Virus record (IMG/VR): IMGVR_UViG_3300027985_000682 | Location: 1-23,750 of that record | Length of the DNA: 23,750 nucleotides | Strand: one strand, 5' to 3' | From: a virus | In this document: positions 5,826 to 23,020 of the stretch, piece after piece | How positions within the stretch are numbered: position 1 is the stretch's first letter | How the letters are laid out: each line of letters begins with the position of its first letter | Made by a program: the position numbers and the translations under genes | The notes under the pieces: generated by a model | Told to the model about the DNA's origin: nothing | Databases searched by the model: none | Seen by the model: the letters and a program-made list of their open reading frames with translations, nothing else

Positions 5826-6068
5826 TTAACTGGCTGGCATGAGGCCTGCGGCCGTGAGAGCCGCCAGCAATGCATCAACCTTATCCGAAATTGCTTGAAC
5901 TTCCCCAACGGATGGGCCGGAGATGGTTTGGTCAAGCAATGGAATGTTTGCAGCAATACCGTGATTAGCTACCACGGAACTCAGGACGGCGCTGACCATA
6001 TCCTTCTGATCTTCTCGGACGCCAGCGGCCTGTTGGGCTGCACTAATTTGGGATGCGTTGAGTGGCAT
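5826..6068 (-). CDS. Small hypothetical protein (80 aa)
   Basis: An 80-residue Ala-rich protein with a strong ribosome site (GGAGGAAC) before ATG 6068-6066. The sequence is mostly helical (SQISAAQQAAGVREDQKDMVSAVLSSVV; VGEVQAISDKVDALLAALTAAG), with a short hydrophobic middle (HGIAANIPLLDQTI). No cysteine and no membrane helix. It overlaps the upstream gene by 26 nt and precedes scaffold and capsid, so a small virion or assembly role is plausible, but I do not recognise a family. Confidence 0.6.
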   Translation of the reverse strand: MPLNASQISAAQQAAGVREDQKDMVSAVLSSVVANHGIAANIPLLDQTISGPSVGEVQAISDKVDALLAALTAAGLMPAS

Positions 6069-6435
6069 CTTGTTCCTCCTCGATCATGAAACTTATCGTA
6101 TTCAACTCCGCCGGAGTGATCGTTAAGTTTGATCCGAAGTCCGATAATTTCAGTTTTCCAACTGGAACATCGAACATTTCTAATAGAGCCTCATCTACAA
6201 CTTTTTGATGTTTCTCTATCATCTCGGGTGGTGGCATTTCGCCTTCCTCGAGGTCTTCAAAACCACATGCCTTTCGACTTCCGGTTATGATACCTTCAAT
6301 CTTGGGGGCCGCAGTTTTGTTGTAAACTTCCGTAATCTTGCCGAAGTTGTACGCTGCCCTAGGGGGCATCCGCTCGGCCATGAGCCTTGATAGAACAGGT
6401 GCCGCGGCAAGCCATTGTCGTAATGTCGCTTCCAT
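6043..6435 (-). CDS. DUF1617-like small phage protein (130 aa)
   Basis: A 130-residue protein with a good ribosome site (GGAGG, spacing 8) before ATG 6435-6433. Its pattern is one I recognise from many phage proteins, including DUF1617-type entries. A leading helix LRQWLAAAPVLSRLMAERMPPRAAYNFGKI is followed by a central helical segment. A pattern of E-x-L-L-E-M-F-D-V-P-V and 'KLKLSDF...LTITPAELNTISFMIEEE' closes it. Function is unknown; members often sit close to tail-fibre or structural genes. Here it follows the metallophosphoesterase and precedes the scaffold block. The family assignment is from memory of the pattern and is moderate. Confidence 0.6.
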   Translation of the reverse strand: MEATLRQWLAAAPVLSRLMAERMPPRAAYNFGKITEVYNKTAAPKIEGIITGSRKACGFEDLEEGEMPPPEMIEKHQKVVDEALLEMFDVPVGKLKLSDFGSNLTITPAELNTISFMIEEEQDATQRIPN

Positions 6436-6437
6436 TT

Positions 6438-7190
6438 TTACGCCTCCGTATACTCCTTACCTCTCCATACAGCCGTTTTTTTATTGCTAGTTGTATGAAT
6501 TGGTATTGGTTCAATAGATAGATGATTTCTATCTACATCTATCAACACGATCCCTTGTTGCCAGTTAGGATTATCCATGTATTCTGGATTTAGTGTGCAG
6601 AGGCAAAATGCTTCCTGGCCAATTACCAGGCCGTGTCGCGTTGTCGCGTATACCGTTCCGCCTCTGTGTGTATGTCCAGCGACCACAGAAATTGAGTAAT
6701 GCTCTTTTTCAAGTTCTGCTTTGGCCGTATAGGCTGAGTTCTTTCTGACATAGGAGCCGTGTTTTAGTACTACTTTATTGTAAAGGTTCAGTTCCTTGCT
6801 TCCAGCCTCGCTCCAGTAAATATCGAACTTGAATAGTTCAAGTATGTTCTGGAGTTTCAGTACCTCGAGGTCTGAAATTTCTGGGTGGTTCCAGATGTAT
6901 CTCCTGAGCCGATCTTCGTGATTTCCTATGAGAAAGTATCCGTGTGCATTTGGGGCCGCATCCATCCACTCTCTCTGACCGGCTTGCCACTTATTTATTT
7001 CATTTTGAAGGTTCGTTCCTTTCATGCGCGCTGGATTTTTACTGTACTTTGAAATACTGTAAAAATCCATTCCGTCCGACCCTGCTATCCTCACATGAGG
7101 GTCAAAGTCTTGTACAATCTGCAATGCTACAGATCGGGCTCGCTCATCCTGAAAAGGATAGTGCTCATCGGTTGGGAAGGCAACTCTCAT
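6438..7190 (-). CDS. Calcineurin-like metallophosphoesterase
   Basis: A 250-residue protein with the full motif set of the calcineurin-like phosphoesterase family: D8-x-H10 (TDEHYP), D39/D42 in GSDGMDF, N90-H91 in GNHEDR, H144 in KHGSY, and H173-x-H175 in GHTHRG. These residues bind two metal ions and hydrolyse phosphomonoesters or diesters. The second motif reads G-S-D-G-M-D instead of the more common G-D-x-x-D, a one-residue variation. It overlaps the previous gene by one base (TAATG), so it is probably translated by re-initiation. Phages carry such enzymes for nucleic-acid end trimming or nucleotide turnover. Its place inside the structural block is odd, and the substrate cannot be told from sequence. 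Confidence 0.85.
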   Translation of the reverse strand: MRVAFPTDEHYPFQDERARSVALQIVQDFDPHVRIAGSDGMDFYSISKYSKNPARMKGTNLQNEINKWQAGQREWMDAAPNAHGYFLIGNHEDRLRRYIWNHPEISDLEVLKLQNILELFKFDIYWSEAGSKELNLYNKVVLKHGSYVRKNSAYTAKAELEKEHYSISVVAGHTHRGGTVYATTRHGLVIGQEAFCLCTLNPEYMDNPNWQQGIVLIDVDRNHLSIEPIPIHTTSNKKTAVWRGKEYTEA

Positions 7191-7474: not shown

Positions 7475-7825
7475 CTATGATCCAGGTACTAAAATGGACT
7501 GGTACATTTTAGCTTTTCCGTTCAGAACTGTGGTTTCGACACCAGATAGATTTGTTGTTTTGATCTCGTACCAGTACGATCCTTCGGCCAAGGCATCTGT
7601 ATCGGTGTCATCTATAGATACTGTAAATATGCCATTGAGGCCATCGTCAATAGATATTCCACTTCCGACTGTTTTGGAGATCAGGGTGACATCATCCTTC
7701 TGAAGCCGGAGAGCAAATTCAATAGACCATCCGGTAATGTTTATGGCAACTTCATTAACGTCCTTTAGTGTAACCTGAAGAAATTTATCATTACCGGTGA
7801 ACATAGTAAAGTTGTAAGCTGTCAT
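7475..7825 (-). CDS. BppU N-terminal-like Ig-fold structural protein (116 aa)
   Basis: A 116-residue all-beta protein. The order of features (GNDKFLQVTLKDVNEVAINITGWSIEFALR, then DGLNGIFTVSIDDTDTDALAEGSYWYEIK, then VETTVLNGKAKMYQSIL) resembles the N-terminal domain of the lactococcal baseplate protein BppU and related tail proteins, which attach receptor-binding parts to the particle. It overlaps the giant fibre gene by ATGA, so the two are made together. It may be a fibre connector or assembly partner. Family recall is by pattern only. Confidence 0.55.
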   Translation of the reverse strand: MTAYNFTMFTGNDKFLQVTLKDVNEVAINITGWSIEFALRLQKDDVTLISKTVGSGISIDDGLNGIFTVSIDDTDTDALAEGSYWYEIKTTNLSGVETTVLNGKAKMYQSILVPGS

Positions 7826-10800
7826 ATCCTTACGTTGACCTCCTCAACGGGATCATAGATGCTCTCGATGATGTCCGTTGTTTTGTGTATGGCCACTATA
7901 AATATGTAACCTGGCGGTGCCGCTCCACCAGTGATAACCCCGCCGTGGAAAGTGTCGGGGTCTATGTAGATTGTCCCAATTAGGAATGCAGAGGCTAGTT
8001 CTAGTAGATGCGATCCAAAGCTATCGCTGTCTACATATAGGGTTCCCACTAATGGAGTGACAGGTGTGATTACACTAGAGCCAAAACTGTCAGCGTCCAC
8101 ATATAGTGTACCCGTAAGTGTCGTAATTGGCAAGAGTACGCTGGTTCCGAACCAGTCCGCATCTACATAAACTGTACCCGAGAGAGTAACTGCTCCAGTT
8201 GTGATTGCATTTGACCCAAATGCATCAGTATCAACGTAAAGAGTTCCCACGAGGCCTTGTGGAGCCCCACCCAAATTGATGATATGGCTCCCGAAACTGT
8301 CTGCGTCGACGAAAAGGGTTCCCGTTAATGCCACCGGCTGTGGGGAGACCGTTTGGCTGTAAAAGGTATCGCTGTCCGTAAACAGGGTTCCGGTCAGGGT
8401 TTGAGGGGCTCCAGATTGAGAGACGCTATGAGAACCAAAGCTATCGCTATCTATATAAATGGAACCCGTTAGTGTAATTCCCTGCGGAGAAATTACTGGG
8501 CTGTAGAATGTATCCGTATCGACGTAGATCGAGCCGACTACATTCAGATCGATTTGGTCTACACCAAAGCTGTCGCTATCGACAAACAGAACTCCAGTTA
8601 GGGTGACTGCTTGTGGGGTGACGGTTGGCGAGTAGAAGGTGTCGCTATCTGCGAAGGTTGCAGTCTGAACCAGATTTTGTGGAGCTGATCCAATGTTGAT
8701 AACGTGACTTCCGAAACTGTCGGCGTCGCTGTAAAGTGTTCCGGTAAGGGTTACTGGGCCGGTAGTGATCGTTGGGCTGTAGAATGTATCTGGGTCAACG
8801 AATAACGTACCGGTCAGGTCATAAATCGCATCTATAGAATGAGAATAAAAACTATCTGTGTCGATATAAATCGAGCCGGTCAAATCATAGATTGTATTTA
8901 TTGAGGGGCTGTAAAATACGTCTGTATCTACATAGATGCTACCAGCGAGGTCGTAAATCGCATCCAGTGTATGGGAGTAGAATGTATCCCCGTCCGTGTA
9001 AATAGTTCCGGTTAGAGTTACTGGCTGTGGAGACACCGTTGAGGAATAGAAGGTATCTGCGTCGGAAAAAGTTGCAGTCTGAACTAAATCTTGTGCTCCA
9101 CCGGCTAGGGCAACTACATGGGAGCCAAAAGTATCTGGATTAACATACAAGGTTCCAGTCAGAGTGACTGGGCCAGTTGTGATTGTGTGCGAATAAAAAC
9201 TATCTGGGTCGATATAGATCGATCCGGTAAGATCGTAGACAGTATCGATTAATTGAGAGTAGAAAGTATCCGTGTCTACATATAAAGTTCCCGTAAGGTC
9301 GTAGATTGCGTCGACGGTAGGAGAGTAGAAACTGTCTGGGTCTACGTAAATACTTCCTACCAGGTTCATCCCAATGGCATCAGCACCAAAGGCGTCTGGG
9401 TCTACGTAAATTGACCCAGATAAATTCATAGCTAAGGAGCTGGCACCAAAGCTATCAGCATCTACATACAATGTCCCAGTCAAGTCTTGAGGAGCTGCGG
9501 CCTGGGATACAGTGTGAGCATAGAATGTATCGGTGTCTGTATAAATGCTACCGGTTAGGGTAACTGCTTGTGGGGAAACTGTTGGGCTATAGAATGTATC
9601 TGGATCGATATAAATAGCTCCAGACAAATTCATAGCAATGGACGGGGAGTAAAAAGTATCTCCATCCACGTAAATCGTTCCGGCCATATTCATGGCCAAT
9701 GAGCTGGCACCAAATGTGTCGGCGTCAGTAAATATTGAAGACTGGCTCAGGAACTGTTCAATGTATATTGTGTGCGAGTAGAACGTATCTGCGTCAGTAT
9801 ACTTTGCTGTTTGTGTGAGGTTTTGGTCTGTGCTTAGGGTATATTCACCGTAGAATACGTCACCGTTAAATCCCGCAGAGGGAGCTGGGCCACGATCAGC
9901 GTCAGCAACTACCCATGCCAAAACTCCATTATGGAATTCGCCGGAGATAATATCAGTTGTGATGCCGTCAGCGATTTCTGTGTCTGTTGCCCACGAACCA
10001 CCGGCTGTGGAATATGTCATATATAAGTCGAAGGTCGTATTATCGGCATAAACTACATAAACTGTATCCGTGGCTGGATCGACACCAACAAAAGCATTCG
10101 GGGAAAGACTTGATGCGATGTCAGCTCTCACCGTATTGTCCGAGATAGCACTTGCAGTTTCGGAGCCAACAGAACCATCTGTTACCCGCCTAGCATACAA
10201 CTTGCTATCTGTGCTCTTGTAATAAACCAGCGTGATGATCTCACTGCCGCTTTCGTCGTGATAAACTGGCTTCAGAGCTGGTGCAGTTACAGCAGCGCCG
10301 ACGGATGTGGTAAGTTCTGTTCTTCCAGAAAGGCTATCTCCACTGGATAAATTGCGATAATAGATAGCAGTGCTGTCACCAGAGTATACAATATGGGTGA
10401 GGTCACTTGCTCCGACGCAACACCGAACGCCATTCCAGGCGATACCAGCTTCCACCTCGAGGTTGTTTTCACTACCCCAGGTACCACCAGATGATCTAAT
10501 TTTATAAAATAGTCTATCGTCGGTTGAGGTGTAGGAGTAAAAACAAACTACTGTACCGTCTGATCTGACTGAAATAGCACACGCTTGGTCTACAACGGAA
10601 GAGGGGCTCGCTACGGTTTCGGTAGCGGTGGCGAATTCATCTGGGTTGGTTGGATGCGTCGACACATTGAATTGTCTGTAGCTTACGATAGTTGATCGTT
10701 GCCATGCAATATGCAGTACGTTTCCGACTAACTGCATATCGGCAGCCTCTAGTTCTTTATTTCCTCCTGGCTCCCAGCCATTGACACCCGTTATTAATTC

Positions 10801-12531
10801 TCCATCGTCCTGAGGAACCCACGTCACTCCATCATCCGTAGATTTCAGAACACATGGGATAATTGGGGATGGTAAGTTTCCGTGCTCTACAATTGTGTAG
10901 AGATTTCCATTACCGTCACGGATTGGGCCGATGTTCCCAGGTGTCTCGGCCTGGACACCACCAACAAAGTTTGATTTGTTGGATATTGTTATCGTTGGTG
11001 TGGTGTATGAGCCAGCAAAAACGGTTCCATCGCTCTCGACAACTCTAAATTGATAGGTATCACCAGCGTTATTGGAGCCCCAGACAGGAGAGTAGTTCGA
11101 TGTGTTGAACAGCTTGTGGATTATTACTCCCCACTCTATTTCAGTGTGTTCTGCACCAGAGAACGCAATAGATGCAGTTACTGGAGTGGCATCGTAAGTA
11201 ATACCTTCTCCCGCCCTGAATGTTGCCGACGATCCAGACAACAGATTTGTTGTGGCTGTGCCGTTTGTGAAGTTTGCCTGATATGCAACATCGACAGGGT
11301 ACTGTAAACCTGTTCCAGGAGAGCCGTTTCCGTAACCTTCTGCATGTGCATCATACCAGGTACCAGTGCCTTTTCTATACTGTAGTTTGAACTGCTTGGT
11401 AACTGTTCCCGTGGTTTCGACTTCAAATCTAATACGAAATAGAGTATCTGGCGTGACAGATACGTTGGCATTAAGAGCACCGAGCCAGCCACTATCTGTG
11501 TTTAATCCAGCACTGTCGTCCCTAACTCTAAAATTTGGTTGTGATAATGTTGCTGGAATTGTATAGTCTACGAGTAAGTAGGCGGCATCTACATCTGATT
11601 GGCTTGTGGAGTTTGCGTGGGCTATGTATAACTGAGCCGCATCAACCTTTGCCCATGTATCAAGAATTGACGAAACATCAACACTTGCCCACCCCCAACT
11701 TCCAGGTAATGATAGACCAGTTGAATTCCAACTAGTACCGTCGTGAATATAAAACGTATCGCCAACTGCTGTCTGTCCATAGACATACAGTGTTACGCTA
11801 TTGAGGGTGTCTGTTGGTGGACGTGCAGTATTAGCAAAAGACCAATCACCGATCTCTGCTTTTTTGGTTGCAGTCCATACATAGTCCGTTGGTTGGTTCT
11901 GAGAAGACAACCAGGGAGTTGAGCCTACTCTAGTCCACCCTGTTCTATTATCAGTAAAGCCAGTTGCGTAAAGGGTTTCTGTTGGGTCGTCACCAAATTC
12001 TTGAATAGCTGACTGCATTCTAAGAATTTCACGTGCCTGATATAAGATTTTTTCTAGGCGCTCTCTCCTATCCTCAGCAATTATGAAGTCCATCTCTTGA
12101 TCTTTTTTAAGTTCAATAGATGCCTCAATATCCATCTCGTAATTTGGTAAAGCTGGGCAATCAAGTTCGTCTAGTATATCTTGATCTGTGTGAGCTACTG
12201 GAAAATCAGCACACGAACGAGGACGTGTCTCATAAATACCACATAAATTATCGGGGCGAAGAAAAGGACAGGGTTTCTTTGGTGCAGTTACAGTATCCTC
12301 GATGTAGAAACCTCTTTTTCCACGATCAGGATGGTCAATATAACTGATCTTTGCTAGAATGTCATAACGACCTTCTTTAGACCAGCGCAATATATCATGA
12401 TACGACACATTGATGTTGACATATCTACAGCACCAACCACATTTAGTACAGTTAAATTCGCCCTTGGCGGGCTTATTTACTGTACCTTCGTTAACAGGTA
12501 AATCGCCAAAAGATTTTACTACTTTTGGCAT
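7822..12531 (-). CDS. Giant repeat fibre with N-terminal CxxCxxCC domain (1569 aa)
   Basis: A 1569-residue protein in four parts. Residues ~25-112 are a YkgJ-type metal-binding domain with C28-x2-C31-x2-C34-C35, then C88, C97 and C107 in RPRSC. Residues ~190-340 look like a beta-sandwich (VTLYVYGQT, DAAYLLVDY). Residues ~520-890 look like a beta-propeller of sialidase type, with one clear Asp box (STDDGVTW, 564-571). Residues 904-1535 are 28 repeats of 20-25 residues with the core LTGTLYVDADSFGSH or DTFYSPTV. The end is a short IFIVAIHKTTDI tail. Beta-propeller plus long repeats suggests a fibre that meets glycans on the host. Its place between portal and scaffold would also allow a head fibre. 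I know of no fibre with this N-terminal domain. The start rests on ATG with AGGAA about 12 nt upstream. Confidence 0.75.
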   Translation of the reverse strand: MPKVVKSFGDLPVNEGTVNKPAKGEFNCTKCGWCCRYVNINVSYHDILRWSKEGRYDILAKISYIDHPDRGKRGFYIEDTVTAPKKPCPFLRPDNLCGIYETRPRSCADFPVAHTDQDILDELDCPALPNYEMDIEASIELKKDQEMDFIIAEDRRERLEKILYQAREILRMQSAIQEFGDDPTETLYATGFTDNRTGWTRVGSTPWLSSQNQPTDYVWTATKKAEIGDWSFANTARPPTDTLNSVTLYVYGQTAVGDTFYIHDGTSWNSTGLSLPGSWGWASVDVSSILDTWAKVDAAQLYIAHANSTSQSDVDAAYLLVDYTIPATLSQPNFRVRDDSAGLNTDSGWLGALNANVSVTPDTLFRIRFEVETTGTVTKQFKLQYRKGTGTWYDAHAEGYGNGSPGTGLQYPVDVAYQANFTNGTATTNLLSGSSATFRAGEGITYDATPVTASIAFSGAEHTEIEWGVIIHKLFNTSNYSPVWGSNNAGDTYQFRVVESDGTVFAGSYTTPTITISNKSNFVGGVQAETPGNIGPIRDGNGNLYTIVEHGNLPSPIIPCVLKSTDDGVTWVPQDDGELITGVNGWEPGGNKELEAADMQLVGNVLHIAWQRSTIVSYRQFNVSTHPTNPDEFATATETVASPSSVVDQACAISVRSDGTVVCFYSYTSTDDRLFYKIRSSGGTWGSENNLEVEAGIAWNGVRCCVGASDLTHIVYSGDSTAIYYRNLSSGDSLSGRTELTTSVGAAVTAPALKPVYHDESGSEIITLVYYKSTDSKLYARRVTDGSVGSETASAISDNTVRADIASSLSPNAFVGVDPATDTVYVVYADNTTFDLYMTYSTAGGSWATDTEIADGITTDIISGEFHNGVLAWVVADADRGPAPSAGFNGDVFYGEYTLSTDQNLTQTAKYTDADTFYSHTIYIEQFLSQSSIFTDADTFGASSLAMNMAGTIYVDGDTFYSPSIAMNLSGAIYIDPDTFYSPTVSPQAVTLTGSIYTDTDTFYAHTVSQAAAPQDLTGTLYVDADSFGASSLAMNLSGSIYVDPDAFGADAIGMNLVGSIYVDPDSFYSPTVDAIYDLTGTLYVDTDTFYSQLIDTVYDLTGSIYIDPDSFYSHTITTGPVTLTGTLYVNPDTFGSHVVALAGGAQDLVQTATFSDADTFYSSTVSPQPVTLTGTIYTDGDTFYSHTLDAIYDLAGSIYVDTDVFYSPSINTIYDLTGSIYIDTDSFYSHSIDAIYDLTGTLFVDPDTFYSPTITTGPVTLTGTLYSDADSFGSHVINIGSAPQNLVQTATFADSDTFYSPTVTPQAVTLTGVLFVDSDSFGVDQIDLNVVGSIYVDTDTFYSPVISPQGITLTGSIYIDSDSFGSHSVSQSGAPQTLTGTLFTDSDTFYSQTVSPQPVALTGTLFVDADSFGSHIINLGGAPQGLVGTLYVDTDAFGSNAITTGAVTLSGTVYVDADWFGTSVLLPITTLTGTLYVDADSFGSSVITPVTPLVGTLYVDSDSFGSHLLELASAFLIGTIYIDPDTFHGGVITGGAAPPGYIFIVAIHKTTDIIESIYDPVEEVNVRI
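7925..9822 (-). repeat. 28 tandem protein-coding repeats (DxDxF type)
   Basis: This DNA codes for the 28 repeats of the giant fibre. Two flavours are mixed: D-x-D-[ST]-F-Y-S-x-[TV] and D-x-D-[ST]-F-G-S-H. Linkers are short (AMN, DAIYD) or longer (SPQAVT, GGAPQD). Unit length varies between about 60 and 75 bp. Codons for identical residues differ from unit to unit, so the repeat is far clearer in protein than in DNA. Confidence 0.9.
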
Positions 12532-15899: not shown

Positions 15900-16172
15900 T
15901 TAGAACTTATCCCTTTTTATGTATTTGGCTCCACCTCGGGTTTTTCCGTGGTGCTCCCCGTATTTGGGCAGGCCGTCATGAATAACGATCCTGGTGAAGC
16001 ACTTTTGAGTTCGGAGAGCTCGGATGAGGTTTACTTCTTCTGCATGGAGCTCATGTTTTTCCTCTGGTTTTTCTTCTTCCATCTTGAGGTCGAGGATTTC
16101 CCCGTACTCTACCAGCTCGCGTATATCCTCGATGAGTTCCCACTCATCCTTACTCATGGATAATCTTATCAT
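15900..16172 (-). CDS. Hypothetical charged protein (90 aa)
   Basis: I chose ATG 16172-16170 (MIRLSMSKDEWELIEDI) because GAGGTG lies 6 nt before it and the upstream gene stops at 16189; a longer reading to 16250 would overlap that gene and lacks a ribosome site. The first half is acidic and helical (ELIEDIRELVEYGEILDLKMEEEKPEEK). The second is basic with Gly and His (HDGLPKYGEHHGKTRGGAKYIKRDKF). The C-terminal H/K/R-rich end could bind nucleic acid. I do not recognise a family. It lies between the zinc ribbon gene and the portal. Confidence 0.65.
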   Translation of the reverse strand: MIRLSMSKDEWELIEDIRELVEYGEILDLKMEEEKPEEKHELHAEEVNLIRALRTQKCFTRIVIHDGLPKYGEHHGKTRGGAKYIKRDKF

Positions 16173-16188
16173 ATTGTTCACCTCATTG

Positions 16189-16389
16189 TCAATAGTCTGG
16201 GTCGTAGTCCCTCCCTGATTGAACATCATCTCTTTTGGTAGGGGAACCACCAGGCCAGTTTACGGAAAAAGAATTATAAACTCGCCGTATTTTCGAGCCG
16301 CATGTAGGACATTTTGTTGGTTTGTCCTCTTTCATTGGGATTTCCAGCTCGAATTGTCCGTGTGTCGGACAACTAAAATCATATCTCAT
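16189..16389 (-). CDS. FmdB-like zinc ribbon protein (66 aa)
   Basis: From ATG 16389-16387 (MRYDFSCPTHGQFELEI) the protein has C7, H10 and the pair C27-P-T-C30-G, a compact zinc ribbon. The start sequence 'M-x-Y-D/E-F-x-C-P-x-H-G-x-F-E' is the signature of the FmdB family of small putative regulators. Start choice is supported by AAGG 5 nt upstream; an adjacent ATG at 16392 would add one residue. Its 5' end overlaps the exonuclease gene by 11 nt. It may act as a small DNA- or protein-binding regulator or a virion cofactor; function is unproven in this family. Confidence 0.75.
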   Translation of the reverse strand: MRYDFSCPTHGQFELEIPMKEDKPTKCPTCGSKIRRVYNSFSVNWPGGSPTKRDDVQSGRDYDPDY

Positions 16390-17713: not shown

Positions 17714-18090
17714 TTCTTCAGCCCTTCATAGTATTTATGCTTGTTGATCCATTGCTGAAAATTCAGAGCACCGGCTTCGTTCCACCATTCCTCGAAAGCC
17801 TCTGCGCCCTCGTCATCTGTAAAAGACATGTAAATCTCGTGCTCGGCAAAGTGAACGGTTTTCTCGTCGCTGATAGATACTTCTGTGAATACTTCCTCCT
17901 CGAGGTGGTACTCAACCTCAACCCTGTAGATGCCGCTTACTGGAAGATACTCAAAGCCCATTTCGTCGACGCAATAGTTTTCAATTTTATTGTCAGCGAA
18001 TACTTGTTTTACCTTATTCTCGAGAAAGATATGGATACTGCTTTCAGTTTTTAGATATTCGTGTGCCTCGAATTCAACTATCAGTTTCAT
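17710..18090 (-). CDS. Hypothetical acidic protein (126 aa)
   Basis: A 126-residue acidic protein that begins KLIVEFEAHEYLKTESSIHIF and contains beta strands (IYRVEVEYHLEEEVFTEVSIS), followed by a helical end (EGAEAFEEWWNEAGALNFQQWINKHKYYEGL). One central Cys (NYCVDEMGFEYL). Both ends overlap neighbours by ATGA (with TerL above, the 121-residue gene below). High charge and small size suggest a host-protein binder or small assembly factor, but no family is recognised. A GTCGACGCAA motif falls within it. Confidence 0.6.
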   Translation of the reverse strand: MKLIVEFEAHEYLKTESSIHIFLENKVKQVFADNKIENYCVDEMGFEYLPVSGIYRVEVEYHLEEEVFTEVSISDEKTVHFAEHEIYMSFTDDEGAEAFEEWWNEAGALNFQQWINKHKYYEGLKK

Positions 18091-19613
18091 CTTCGTCCTC
18101 TACTCTTTACTCTTCGCGACCTTCTTCCTCTTGACCTCGAGGGTTTTCCGACCTCACCCTTTCCCATGTTCTGAATAAATCTAGCCAGGAAGGATATTTG
18201 GCCGATTGTCATTACGGTGTCCTGGGGTTCTCCCTGCCTATCGGCTTCCTCGGTGTAGGTTGTTAGTTGTCTGATTAAGCCCTTGATAGGAGGAAATCTC
18301 CAGTAGATATTGGTAATGTCACTCACAAGACTGTTTAAGATGCCGTTCTTGTCATTATTGAAGTTGATTTTCTCGGTTTCGATGCCCACATTCTCAAAAG
18401 CAAGCTCGTCCATCGCCTTTTGGGTTCCGGTGGCGTCGATACCCTTATAAAGGGGTGCGTACTTTTCAATTGCGTATTTGTAGCTACGAAGGAAGGGGTT
18501 GTATGATCCTTTTCCTGTAACCCAGTGGAAGTAAACGAGTTTCCAGGGGCGTTTTGTGACATCTGCCACCATAACACAGCCAGCATTTCGAGCAGGGTAT
18601 GATCCAGCTCCTGGGTCTCCGGCCGCGATGTAATATTTACCAGGCTCGACCGGCAGTTCAAAGAGGGTAATCCCGTGGCGTGGGTCTTCTTCAAGATGAT
18701 AGCCTCCTGGCACCGGTTTTTTATTCAGTGCCTCTAAAACAGCATCGTATATCGAAACGTCATTGCATTGACCAACGTAGTGAGCGGGAAAGAGAGACAA
18801 ACCGTATTCTGGGAACATTCCGCCCATTTCAACGTCCACCAAATCGGGAGGATATTCTGCCCTCATGGCGTCGACCTGGTCTACTGTAAGAGCGGTGTTA
18901 TCCCAAGTAGCAACCCTGAACGAGCGGTACAATCTAAGGTTGGTTTTTGCAGCATTTACATCCTCGTTCATACCTGAGTTGGGATCACCCTTATCGAAGT
19001 TCTCTCTCAACCATGGTGCCTCCGTCGGGGATGTTATACCGTCAAGTCTTGCCATTCTCGGTTTAGGCTGGACGCCAGTTATCCCCGACGGACGGACACC
19101 TCTTAAACGGCCTCTTAGAACTTTTACAATATGACCAATGAGATCAAGGCCGCATTCATCAAAGCCTATTCTGTCGTATTCGGAGCCTCTGATATTGTCC
19201 GCATTTCGCCCCGAGGTTCTAAAATCCCACTCCGATCCATTCTTCCAGGTGACTTTCTTATAGGGTGCCTTGGTAATACTATCAACCAGATGTCTTACCC
19301 TATCGCTCATGTCATACCAACCCATAAACATGTCATACATCAGGTTGGCCTGAGCCTCAGTGACCGAAGTTGTTAGAGCCCTAAAGTAAGGGATAGTCAT
19401 GCAGTCCATCGCGAGGGACATCGCCTCGACGGTAGTTTTTCCAGAGGCGATACCACAAACAGCATACATATTAGGGACGACCAACTGGTGCCACGTCCAC
19501 TGCCACGGCTGAGGCGTGATCCCAAAGTACCAGTCTGTAGCAACATGAAAACCTCCCTGAGCCCTCAAGGCAATAGGGAGGATTTCTTTGTCGGCCCTAG
19601 TCAGATATGCCAT
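18087..19613 (-). CDS. terL: Terminase large subunit
   Basis: A 508-residue two-domain packaging motor. The ATPase half has a Walker A-like loop CGIASGKT (53-60), in which the first position is Cys instead of Gly or Ala, and Walker B YDRIGFDE (146-153) with catalytic E153. The nuclease half has D333 (AAGDPGAG), D393 (YKGIDATG) and D421 or D432 (NNDKNG/SDI), the RNase H-like acidic set used to cut concatemers. The end is strongly basic (PSRSRGRRSRRVKSRGRR). The start ATG 19613 has GGAGAG 5 nt upstream and overlaps the previous gene by 17 nt. No conventional small terminase gene is recognised next to it. Headful versus cos packaging cannot be told from sequence alone. Confidence 0.9.
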   Translation of the reverse strand: MAYLTRADKEILPIALRAQGGFHVATDWYFGITPQPWQWTWHQLVVPNMYAVCGIASGKTTVEAMSLAMDCMTIPYFRALTTSVTEAQANLMYDMFMGWYDMSDRVRHLVDSITKAPYKKVTWKNGSEWDFRTSGRNADNIRGSEYDRIGFDECGLDLIGHIVKVLRGRLRGVRPSGITGVQPKPRMARLDGITSPTEAPWLRENFDKGDPNSGMNEDVNAAKTNLRLYRSFRVATWDNTALTVDQVDAMRAEYPPDLVDVEMGGMFPEYGLSLFPAHYVGQCNDVSIYDAVLEALNKKPVPGGYHLEEDPRHGITLFELPVEPGKYYIAAGDPGAGSYPARNAGCVMVADVTKRPWKLVYFHWVTGKGSYNPFLRSYKYAIEKYAPLYKGIDATGTQKAMDELAFENVGIETEKINFNNDKNGILNSLVSDITNIYWRFPPIKGLIRQLTTYTEEADRQGEPQDTVMTIGQISFLARFIQNMGKGEVGKPSRSRGRRSRRVKSRGRR

Positions 19614-20499
19614 CTTCTCTCCAGGGATTATCTCTCCTTCGTTCTGCCCAGTTACGGATGCTCTGATCCAGTTCTGCTTGCAAATTGTCAGCTTCTGGAA
19701 GGTTCTCTGTCCATCGTTTTACGATCCCGTGCACGGTGGACTTTTGCGTCGGTCGCAAGCCGAGAGCTCTAACGATCTCGGTTGGGCCTGGGATTTCAGT
19801 TCCGGCTGGTAAACTGTTGAGATACTCCTCGACAGCCTCGCTTACGTTCGCCGGTTGTTCGTAACGAACGTTCGGCTGTTCGTCCCGAACGTCACCTGTA
19901 AGATTTCTGAAGTTGAACTCCGTCAAGCCCATATTCCCCATGATGGTACGAACCCAGTCGATTTCCTTTTTGGTAATTGGGCGTTCGTAGTCTTCTGGAA
20001 TTCGGTCAACCATAGCGATTGTCCAGCTCAAAACGATAGCCAGGACAGTCGGGGCCAGGCCAAAGATGGCCACTGCCGCTTTGTAGGCAAGCCCTTCAGC
20101 GCCAGGGACATCCAGTAAGCCAACCTCGCTGGCACCATAAATAGCGTCAGCGAGGTTAAAAACTCCATCGAAGGTGGCGAAAAAGAGCATTGCGATGCGA
20201 GCGGGAACCACGGCGTTCTTGGATGTGGCATAGTAGGCGAGCTCTCTTTCACGCCTCCGCCTCTCCTTCGGGGAGCTTGGCTCATCGTCGTAGTCGGGCG
20301 GGTCTTCGTTCCTCGAGAAGTATGAGGAAGTGATTGTCCCTACGCCCAAACTCAGCGCGAACATGATCGAGATCAGATCGTGGACATCGGGGCCAGGGGT
20401 TTGTGGAGACATCGTCCTAACAAAGGAGCTTACTCGTGGAAGAACGATCAAGATCAGGAATATTGGCAGCACTCGTTGTAAAATCTTGAAGAATTTCAT
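19597..20499 (-). CDS. Membrane protein with C-terminal winged-helix-like domain (300 aa)
   Basis: A 300-residue protein with four likely membrane helices (about 7-26, 41-58, 98-118 and 140-164) and a charged loop at ~64-88 (DDEPSSPKERRRRERE). A soluble C-terminus carries a winged-helix-like segment at ~219-263 (VSEAVEEYLNSLPAG...PTEIVRALGLRPTQKSTVHGIVKRW). A membrane half plus a DNA-binding-like tail resembles DUF2637/SpdA-type proteins of mobile elements, but I cannot confirm that. It ends 17 nt inside terL, where a small terminase would normally be. The linker between the halves is coded by a 21-bp tandem repeat full of GTTCG/CGAAC inverted pairs. The start ATG 20499 follows GAGG closely. 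Confidence 0.65.
   Translation of the reverse strand: MKFFKILQRVLPIFLILIVLPRVSSFVRTMSPQTPGPDVHDLISIMFALSLGVGTITSSYFSRNEDPPDYDDEPSSPKERRRRERELAYYATSKNAVVPARIAMLFFATFDGVFNLADAIYGASEVGLLDVPGAEGLAYKAAVAIFGLAPTVLAIVLSWTIAMVDRIPEDYERPITKKEIDWVRTIMGNMGLTEFNFRNLTGDVRDEQPNVRYEQPANVSEAVEEYLNSLPAGTEIPGPTEIVRALGLRPTQKSTVHGIVKRWTENLPEADNLQAELDQSIRNWAERRRDNPWREDGISD
19846..19890. repeat. GTTCG/CGAAC inverted-repeat array (candidate operator or packaging site)
   Basis: Six GTTCG or CGAAC pentamers occur in 45 bp (19846, 19857, 19865, 19870, 19878, 19886). They form two GTTCG-N3-CGAAC elements at 19857-19869 and 19878-19890, 21 bp apart, plus CGAACGTTCG between them. The DNA is a 21-bp tandem repeat (18 of 21 bases alike) encoding VRDEQPN then VRYEQPA in the membrane/wHTH protein. 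Confidence 0.7.
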
Positions 20500-20500
20500 T

Positions 20501-20767
20501 TCACCTCGTAATGGATGGGCCGTCGGAATTTTGCCTGGTTATGTTCATAGAGATTGTGCCGACGCAACGTGGGCATGTTATTTCTAGTGGTGTAAACATC
20601 GGGGCGGCTATACTCAATTCCGTTGCACAGTACGGGCACGTCATAAACATAGAAACCCAACCAAAATAGCCATAGCCATCGCTTCTTTCCAGGAGCTCGA
20701 GAAAGTCTCCCCATTCAACAAACTCAATATTTTCTTGTGAATTTTCCATTTGGCAGCGTGTCGTCAT
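20501..20767 (-). CDS. Small zinc-ribbon protein (88 aa)
   Basis: From ATG 20767 (AGGA 9 nt upstream) the protein is 88 residues; ATG 20749 (MENSQENIEF) is a possible shorter start with no clear ribosome site. It carries C-P-Y-C (MTCPYCATEL) and C-P-R-C (EITCPRCVGTI) about 20 residues apart, a simple zinc ribbon, preceded by an acidic helix (FVEWGDFLELLERSDGYGYF). Such small ribbons often bind nucleic acid or RNA polymerase, but no target is evident. It overlaps the upstream membrane gene by 26-44 nt and ends 2 nt before the start of the next gene. Confidence 0.65.
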   Translation of the reverse strand: MTTRCQMENSQENIEFVEWGDFLELLERSDGYGYFGWVSMFMTCPYCATELSIAAPMFTPLEITCPRCVGTISMNITRQNSDGPSITR

Positions 20768-21102: not shown

Positions 21103-21507
21103 CTAGTCCTCGTAATTGTATCCGTAATTTATAGAAAGAATAGCCCTAAGCCTCTCCCTACTCAATTTATTGTCATGGGCCTCGGAGTGATGTTTACGGC
21201 ACAGCTTAATCAAATTCTCCGGAACATCATCGCCTCCCGCGCCCATGTGTGTAATGTGATGAATGTCCTCGCCTCCCATACATTCACTTATGCCACGAGC
21301 CATGCAGTATTTGTCTCTGAGTTTCCGTACATACTCGATAACCTCGAGATCAGATATGCGTTGCGGCTTTGGTGCGGGAGTGAACTTTTTTCTCGCAGGA
21401 TGAACATTCCCCACGGCGGGGCCAAATCTGTCACTGGAATTTCCCGACACGGCCACCTTCTTTCCTGATTTACCTCCGCCTTTCTCATTATGTTTCCGCT
21501 CGTCCAT
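21103..21507 (-). CDS. HNH endonuclease (134 aa)
   Basis: Residues ~68-111 carry an HNH core: C68, C76, H83-H84 (EDIHHITHMGAGG), N98 (PENLIKLC), C103, H106-H107 and H111. The first ~50 residues are basic and Gly/Ser/Pro-rich, without obvious fold. The start at ATG 21507 overlaps the PD-(D/E)XK gene by 220 nt; a GTG at 21456 has AGGA 6 nt upstream and may be the true start. HNH enzymes near terminase genes are common in phages and assist packaging or DNA processing; free-standing homing types are an alternative. The core motif is certain, the start less so. Confidence 0.8.
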   Translation of the reverse strand: MDERKHNEKGGGKSGKKVAVSGNSSDRFGPAVGNVHPARKKFTPAPKPQRISDLEVIEYVRKLRDKYCMARGISECMGGEDIHHITHMGAGGDDVPENLIKLCRKHHSEAHDNKLSRERLRAILSINYGYNYED

Positions 21508-21851: not shown

Positions 21852-22185
21852 CTTCCGCCTCGGTGGCGAACGGTAGATCAGTCCATCGGTTAAGCATACC
21901 GACTACTGCCTCTACCGCGGCTTCGAGAATAAACTCTGGGACGCCAGGGAAATATTCCCGCATATATTGCATCACATAGTTTTTCTTCTGCTCGTTCGTC
22001 CATCCTGAGACCTTGCCAATTTGTTCTGCGGCATTGACCAGCATGTCGGCAATGCGTTGCAGTTCGTCAGAGAAGTCCAGCTTGCGCTTACCTTTTAGGG
22101 CGTCGTACAGTTCCTTTACAACTGCCAGAATGGCGACGAACAGAACTGCTCCTCCGAGCCATAAAATAGCTTCTACAAAGTTCAT
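21835..22185 (-). CDS. Holin, LLH-type (116 aa)
   Basis: A 116-residue protein with one N-terminal membrane helix (about 4-23, VEAILWLGGAVLFVAILAVV). A soluble part follows: a charged link (KGKRKLDFSDEL), a helix (ADMLVNAAEQIG), K67-K68-N-Y-V (EQKKNYVMQYM), and a closing helix with FILEAAVEAVVGMLN. This layout matches the LLH-type phage holins, in which the 'aeq' helix, 'K-x-Y-V' and 'E-A-A-V' features recur. Holins time host lysis by opening the inner membrane. No endolysin is recognised in this window. It overlaps the upstream membrane gene by ATGA and the downstream nuclease by 17 nt. Confidence 0.75.
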   Translation of the reverse strand: MNFVEAILWLGGAVLFVAILAVVKELYDALKGKRKLDFSDELQRIADMLVNAAEQIGKVSGWTNEQKKNYVMQYMREYFPGVPEFILEAAVEAVVGMLNRWTDLPFATEAEDAPTE

Positions 22186-22742
22186 GGTTGTGATCCTTTC
22201 GTTGGTGGTGTGAAATGTGGGCGGCTAAGGCCGCTGTAACTCTGCTGTCTGGACGGGCCAGGCAACGATTTTCTTTGTTTTGGCGCTGTTCTCATGTGAT
22301 CCAGTCCATAGACCAGGGAGTTTATTAGCGTAAACCGGATAATGAATACGAACAGGGCAACACTGACTGGGACGTAGACCAGGAGCTCGTTACGTGTAAT
22401 TAGCTCGTTTCCTATATCCCTTACAACCATCAATTCTAACACGGAGTACCAGGTCATCAAAGCATTCAAAAAGGCGGCTACGAGCCAGGCACCGACAGCG
22501 AGCCAGACTTCTGTTGGTTCCTTACTTAAACTCGTTTCCTGGTTCATGGCTCGAGAGATACCTCCAACGTCAGCGAGACAGGCCGCTAAGGCAAATAGGG
22601 TTCCGAGGCTAATACCCAGAACCCGTATATCCCCCAATATTGAAGTGACGGCAATCTCCGTGGTTGCGTAATTGAAAATCTCAAACGCCAGGATAGCCAC
22701 GCCGAGCAATGTGAATTGTGTCAAGCGCACTTGTTTTATCAT
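22182..22742 (-). CDS. Four-helix membrane protein at the head of the late operon (186 aa)
   Basis: From ATG 22742-22740 (MIKQVRLTQF) with AAAGGA upstream, the protein has 186 residues; a longer reading to 22841 would cross the promoter and is not likely. Membrane helices lie at about 9-28, 42-62, 78-100 and 118-140, followed by a Pro/Ser/basic tail (PKQRKSLPGPSRQQS). A DVGGISRA motif sits after helix 2. Its topology is similar to the first half of the 300-residue membrane/wHTH protein, but without the DNA-binding part. Function is unknown. As the first gene of the minus array and coupled to the holin by ATGA, it may act with the holin or in host takeover. Confidence 0.65.
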   Translation of the reverse strand: MIKQVRLTQFTLLGVAILAFEIFNYATTEIAVTSILGDIRVLGISLGTLFALAACLADVGGISRAMNQETSLSKEPTEVWLAVGAWLVAAFLNALMTWYSVLELMVVRDIGNELITRNELLVYVPVSVALFVFIIRFTLINSLVYGLDHMRTAPKQRKSLPGPSRQQSYSGLSRPHFTPPTKGSQP

Positions 22743-23020
22743 TTTGTATTTCCTTTCATAGGGTCGTGAGCATTTTACCACGTTTTGGGGTGGAATGCAA
22801 GTTATCTGGAGAAGCGGAAGGGTATCAGCCCGTATTAACATTCATTACAAGTGAACACCCCACTACCCACCTATAAGCAATACTTTCCAACCACTCGCTA
22901 TAAAAATAGCATACTATCTACGAGATGTTTAAAAGAGTTGCCTCCGGCTACAAAAAGTATACAGGGTGATGATAGAGATTATCTCACCCACCAAACATTC
23001 TAAGTAACTTGGAGGTTACA
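22743..23020. promoter_or_regulatory. Divergent control region
   Basis: This 278-nt gap separates the leftward and rightward arrays. It contains the minus promoter, an imperfect inverted repeat at 22964-22989 (GGGTGA-T-GATA, 5-nt loop, TATC-TCACCC) next to a TATACA box (22958-22963), and a copy of GTTGCCTCCGGC (22937-22948). The plus promoter cannot be fixed: TTGCCT lies only 14 bp before TATACA. The repeat may be an operator or a leader hairpin. Confidence 0.55.
22772..22800 (-). promoter_or_regulatory. Sigma70-like promoter for the minus-strand late array
   Basis: On the minus strand TTGCAT (22795-22800), a 17-bp spacer, and TAAAAT (22772-22777) match the -35 and -10 consensus closely. It lies 30 nt before the first minus gene and is the best promoter seen in the window. 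Confidence 0.75.

Follow-up and report, generated by a model that had tools for sequence, protein, structure and literature searches.

A putative membrane-anchored DNA-binding protein with a CGAAC repeat array inside its own gene, encoded next to a phage large terminase

Described membrane anchors and in-gene targets

Apart from phi29 and a few giant phages, little is known of how a phage genome is positioned in the cell. The phi29 protein p16.7 has one transmembrane (TM) segment, and we know of no target array embedded in it. Both p16.7 and p1 anchor phage replication at the membrane (PMC4974454), and the original prediction is therefore wrong, in general, in stating that no link between phage DNA and the membrane has been described in tailed phages. 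Targets inside the gene of the binding protein are also described: SpdA2/sps of the Streptomyces plasmid pIJ101 has a palindromic target inside the SpdA2 coding region and affects segregational stability (PMC4170104), the binding sites of lambda O (ori) lie inside its own gene (PMC6022878), and the Rep boxes of pSK41 lie inside rep, in the part encoding a linker (PMC5703833).

The protein considered here, P0001, is encoded in a 23,750-nt stretch of viral DNA (the window), and shares some features with each of these systems. P0001 would resemble p16.7 (and p1) as a phage protein, integral to or associated with the membrane, by which DNA replication is tied to it (PMC4974454), although p16.7 binds single-stranded DNA and terminal protein. 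SpdA2 is likewise a DNA-binding protein with a target in its own gene, as is inferred for P0001, but its DNA-binding region is N-terminal, it is not described as a membrane protein, and it is found only in Streptomyces plasmids. SpdB2 (DUF2637) is an integral membrane protein of a mobile element with DNA binding (PMC4170104); however, its binding is non-specific, and P0001 has no DUF2637 match. Lambda O and pSK41 Rep differ in being soluble replication initiators without a membrane domain. The small terminase, TerS, resembles P0001 in its place before terL and in its helix-turn-helix (HTH), but is a soluble oligomer, whereas P0001 has four TM helices and one of its relatives co-occurs with a real TerS. 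In P0001, a DNA-selected array lies in the coding sequence beside the DNA-binding domain. Anchor, binder and own-gene target are thus known singly, and their combination appears to be new.

The P0001 gene, its HTH and its array

The following features of the gene were identified:

19597..20499 (-): P0001 gene, 300 aa, four-TM and HTH protein (open reading frame, hydropathy)
20005..20478 (-): P0001 membrane part with four predicted TM helices, residues 8-165 (hydropathy and loop charges)
19844..19892 (.): array of CGAAC/GTTCG half-sites in the P0001 coding sequence, residues ~203-219 (synonymous recoding and any-5-mer control)
19702..19836 (-): C-terminal HTH of P0001, residues 222-266 (model and hhalign profile match)

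The reading frame has an ATG start and a stop, with GAGGTG, a good ribosome-binding site, just ahead of the ATG. The hydropathy profile peaks at residues 3, 39, 96 and 143, giving the four TM segments originally predicted. Loop 2-3 carries 8 K+R and loops 1 and 3 carry one each, so that an N-in/C-in topology fits and the tail is predicted to be cytoplasmic. The TM domains rest on hydropathy, structural models of this part being of low confidence. The AlphaFold single-sequence model of P0001 is poor as a whole (pLDDT 57), Foldseek with this model and phmmer against the PDB gave no useful match, and VIA-align of the TM part yielded uninformative matches of middling quality, transporter half-bundles for the most part. 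No family in Pfam, NCBIfam or PHROGs passes for P0001, and no direct relatives were found in viral-contig, phage or plasmid collections.

Blocks of the model inside residues 221-260 form three helices with pLDDT 79-89. In hhalign, an HTH profile built without P0001 from other TM-HTH proteins (see below) matched residues 222-266 with a probability of 91% (E 1.1e-6) and a score of 19.2 bits, the best of 2000 shuffles reaching 4.0 bits. The tail, called winged-helix-like in the original prediction, is thereby confirmed as an HTH, homologous to those of the other TM-HTH proteins. Compared with each other, the two main TM-HTH types align at E 4.2e-9, and only in the HTH; their HTHs are homologous although the TM families that carry them are not alignable. 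The recognition helices have a K-S motif in most of the CGAAC group and K-G in locus L024, and L013, in which the repeats are GTAC, has a diverged recognition helix. The HTH of L077 reaches Pfam gathering scores (HTH_28/HTH_23). A match of the tail to DUF5388 is below threshold (E 0.0009).

CGAAC is a half-site of Gram-positive LexA boxes. In Foldseek, the HTH of the L024 model matched LexA domains (3jso, probability 0.96; 3k2z, 0.97) and phage LexA domains (probability up to 0.99), all of these matches carrying E-values above 0.4. The LexA DNA-binding domain (PF01726) matched none of the tails at E up to 10. Membership of the LexA family, being without sequence support, was rejected, and the likeness is one of fold only.

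Between the TM part and the HTH, the window gene carries six CGAAC/GTTCG half-sites within 45 bp, an array that the original prediction had missed. GTTCGNNNCGAAC occurs twice in it, with 0.01 occurrences expected across the window. GTTCGTAACGAAC at 19857-19869 and GTTCGTCCCGAAC at 19878-19890 follow a 21-bp period, and extra half-sites lie at 19846 and 19870. The GTTCGTAACGAAC/GTTCGTCCCGAAC repeat was found nowhere else in the window (0.01 expected in the whole window). Taken alone, the array is modest by scan statistic (p 7e-8, against a median of 7.6e-7 for the best match of simulated windows). When the linkers were synonymously recoded, the observed number of motif copies was never reached (0/4000 in each of five genes; for CGAAC copies, 0/1000 in each of the seven CGAAC genes). 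With a stricter control counting any 5-mer, P was 0.005 for the window, 0.003 for L024 and 0/1000 for the remaining genes, except for L020, which fails (P 0.116). The copies lie in several frames, and in both orientations in most genes. The excess over recoding, together with this spread of frames and orientations, shows that selection acts on the DNA. Clusters of at least four CGAAC per 100 bp are confined to the TM-HTH gene in all seven CGAAC loci, which points to one cis-site per locus and not to a regulon.

Recurrence of the layout and the place beside terL

The TM-array-HTH layout was found in the window and in L013, L020, L024, L129, L063, L126 and L077, small counts in terms of distinct lineages. 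CGAAC arrays are present in 7/8 of these genes, the exception being GTAC in L013. A first scan, of the loci gathered by then, took open reading frames with at least three TMs and a soluble tail, with no selection on motif. In each of the five HTH-bearing genes that it covered (window, L013, L020, L024 and L063), copies of a 5-mer were densely arrayed between the two parts; in four of these genes the 5-mer was CGAAC or one overlapping it. L129, L126 and L077 were obtained by two array-pattern scans of viral contigs followed by an open reading frame filter. As these came through the motif, they speak for recurrence of the layout but are not independent support for CGAAC.

In L013, L020 (identical to L022 and L032) and L024, the four-TM/HTH-tail gene is directly or closely ahead of TerL, with other cargo between it and terL in L024. 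The L013 protein is 27% identical to that of L020 and 44% to that of L024; the TM part of P0001 could not be aligned with any of the three. Overlap with terL is 17 nt in the window, exactly as first stated, 20 nt in L020 and 17 nt in L129, and the two genes are adjacent in L013. The order in L129 is holin - PDDEXK - HNH - TM-array-HTH - TerL.

The other members are found in different surroundings. A further TM-HTH type (L039/L063, 274 aa) comes from G065, a genome of the class to which the Anaerolineae MAG L032 belongs. The L063 prophage carries an integrase, a PrimPol/CHC2 primase, a Rep_1-like RCR Rep and a weakly Zot-like ATPase, and is thus filamentous-phage-like. A tandem-CGAAC pattern search of 396 genomes of the class gave chance matches apart from L039/L063, and L039/L063 was also the only convincing match in an HTH-profile search of genomes. 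The L126 protein, 65% identical to that of L063, is encoded in a replication module together with RecT and a DnaD-like loader. L077 has a different TM part, and its phage encodes a canonical TerS (phrog_51, E 3.2e-20) and TerL, with the TM-array-HTH gene standing apart from both. DUF2637 (PF10935) has no match in P0001, L013, L020 or L024; L063 scores 13.6 bits (E 0.065), below the cut-off of 22.8.

Around P0001, the window gene order is as follows:

18087..19613 (-): large terminase terL (PHROG phrog_2, E 2.7e-21)
19597..19613 (-): P0001/terL overlap of 17 nt, at the terL start (coordinates; 17 nt also in L129/L201)
20501..20767 (-): small Zn-ribbon-like protein ahead of the P0001 gene
20724..21101 (-): putative membrane protein of 125 aa, belonging to the inserted block
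21103..21507 (-): HNH endonuclease, widely conserved ahead of terL in the phage group

Small Zn-ribbon-like open reading frames precede the TM-HTH gene in L013 and L024 too, and no relatives of the 125-aa protein were found. The P0001 gene lies in a late operon (lysis, packaging, head). TerL relatives were gathered from viral contigs and genomes, some of them from MAGs bearing the labels Anaerolineae, Deltaproteobacteria and Lentisphaerota. The genes around them commonly run holin - PDDEXK-like - HNH - variable cargo - TerL - variable cargo - portal - phosphoesterase - scaffold - capsid. The interval from HNH to TerL is empty, or holds nucleotide-metabolism or other small genes, or a TM-HTH gene, and most relatives have HNH or other cargo, and no TM-HTH gene, before terL. 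The content of this slot varies, so that it is not a conserved small-terminase position, as had been supposed, and the P0001 gene is accessory there. The original remark that no usual small terminase is seen is borne out for the 20 proteins of the window that were scanned with PHROGs, the record being linear, 23.7 kb long and possibly a fragment. P0001 itself matched no TerS family in PHROGs or Pfam at E up to 10.

Several other genes of this group were recorded. A four-TM 213-aa protein without HTH or array lies ahead of TerL in L007 (5677-6318), and could be unrelated to the TM-HTH genes or represent a reduced form related to them. A second four-TM protein of the window (22182-22841, (-)), in which no HTH was seen, lies ahead of the holin and has relatives in L013 (5194-5688) and L024 (4399-4845, 36% identity). 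A small protein before the portal (window 15900-16250, (-)), with no family match, is kept in L003, L005, L011, L027 and L031, and weakly in L024. The TerL of L006 (6789-9356) is a single 855-aa frame with a long, intein-like insert at the Walker A region; TerL matches are split after about residue 60 by ~960 bp in L019 (1746-4295) and by ~385 bp in L024 (7001-8872), possibly by further inteins or introns. The N-terminus of a 1569-aa protein of the window (7822-12531, (-)) is rich in cysteine and resembles YkgJ-type clusters; the protein also contains some two dozen repeats of LTGTLYVDADSFGS type and probably belongs to the tail or a fibre, its head domain being unusual.

Possible functions of P0001

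On balance, we lean towards P0001 being a membrane-anchored DNA-binding protein that has the CGAAC array of its own gene as target and acts as a tether for the genome, the tethering being less certain than the array binding. The four TM helices would put the HTH on the cytoplasmic side, where it would bind the array, and this binding would give the phage genome one membrane attachment point. In favour of this are the array present in every TM/HTH-tail gene found, the selection on its DNA, the single cluster per locus, the HTH homology across TM families, the LexA-like fold matches, and the precedents of lambda O, pSK41 Rep, SpdA2/sps and the phi29 anchors. Such an attachment would most likely serve to locate, replicate or partition the intracellular genome, and not DNA recognition for the terminase. 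Since a single gene carries both the protein and its cis-site, the unit would be able to move between unrelated phages and into any operon, and its recurrence in unrelated phages suggests a portable membrane fastening of phage DNA rather than a replacement packaging subunit. The late-operon place of the window gene counts against this explanation, being odd for a replication or partition site, and so do the modest scan statistic of the window array and the many unrelated viral genes with tandem CGAAC arrays. More tentatively, and with somewhat less than even confidence, the gene may be a self-contained membrane 'centromere', with anchor, DNA-binding domain and array in one gene, shared by tailed and filamentous-type phages, in which array and recognition helix change together (CGAAC versus GTAC) and which fixes the genome at a single point.

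A membrane-bound transcriptional autoregulator of the ToxR/CadC kind appears unlikely, although it ranks highest among the alternatives. Its HTH would repress or sense through the array as an in-gene operator, in keeping with the LexA-like fold matches and with known membrane-bound HTH regulators such as CadC (PMC5430869). However, the array is about 600 bp into the coding sequence and not at a promoter, a second cluster is absent in all seven loci, and the half-sites of L063 (23), L126 (20) and the L129 tail (17) exceed the needs of an operator. Next in order, and also unlikely, is a membrane-anchored origin-binding protein for which the array would be the replication origin, as in lambda O and RepA_N plasmids, with replication starting at the membrane. 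The neighbours of L063 (PrimPol and RCR Rep) and L126 (RecT and DnaD-like loader) agree with this, as does an unselected tally of 69 array-covering open reading frames from viral contigs, in which replication initiators and DnaD-like helicase loaders recur more than any other named class, the rest including methyltransferases and portals. The recurrence of this class favours, but does not prove, a cis-site meaning of the arrays. Against an origin, the arrays have no consistent AT-rich element nearby and no skew turn, the gene is in a late operon in the terL group and missing from most terL relatives, and the protein is without a helicase-loader domain.

That P0001 substitutes for the small terminase, recognising a pac/cosB-like array in its own gene and bringing TerL to DNA at the membrane, is improbable. 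The overlap or adjacency with terL in the window, L020, L129 and L013, the lack of a TerS among the scanned window proteins, and a TerS-like gene of L100 with a CGAAC array before its HTH region would fit. However, most TerL relatives are without the gene, L077 has TerS and TerL and still carries a TM-array-HTH gene elsewhere, L063 is in a filamentous-type prophage that does not need a terminase, and known TerS proteins are soluble. A packaging role of P0001 is thus unlikely. Of the original suggestion that P0001 tethers phage DNA or packaging to the membrane, the DNA tether is supported as an idea, whereas packaging is opposed by the L077 TerS and the absence of the gene from most relatives. 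The other suggestion, a mobile-element type of membrane protein, is likewise supported. The small-terminase position is opposed also by the same design occurring in a filamentous-phage-like prophage, a replication module and a TerS-bearing phage. Finally, the repeats could be a by-product of a charged low-complexity linker or of CGAA microsatellite growth, without DNA function. This is very improbable: (CGAA)n tandem runs do occur in many unrelated phage genes, but the arrays of the window and L077 consist of half-sites that are inverted and lie in several frames, not of simple tandem runs, the recoding tests oppose it, and L013 has another motif at the same place.

With anchor, binder and cis-site in one gene, the tether that we favour would make a genome-membrane link testable with one protein and a 50-bp DNA. 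The combination of TM helices, a DNA-level repeat array and an HTH also serves as a search rule, which gave L126, L129 and L077 from the DNA pattern alone.

Tandem CGAAC arrays in viral contigs are found in many unrelated genes, and many of them are simple CGAA runs without clear meaning. Array genes picked by hand include six replication proteins, one TerS-like protein and one FtsK/terminase-like ATPase. The pac site of tailed phages is often within terS. In L100, the TerS-like gene (5913-6662, (-); phrog_4044, E 1.8e-7), whose family is also present in L110, L112 and L150, has its CGAAC array just ahead of the HTH region, as expected for a pac site inside terS. In the ATPase of L147 (2835-4379), TM helices lie at the N-terminal end and the CGAAC array precedes the C-terminal domain; the protein is reminiscent of TraB/FtsK proteins, which read short repeats.
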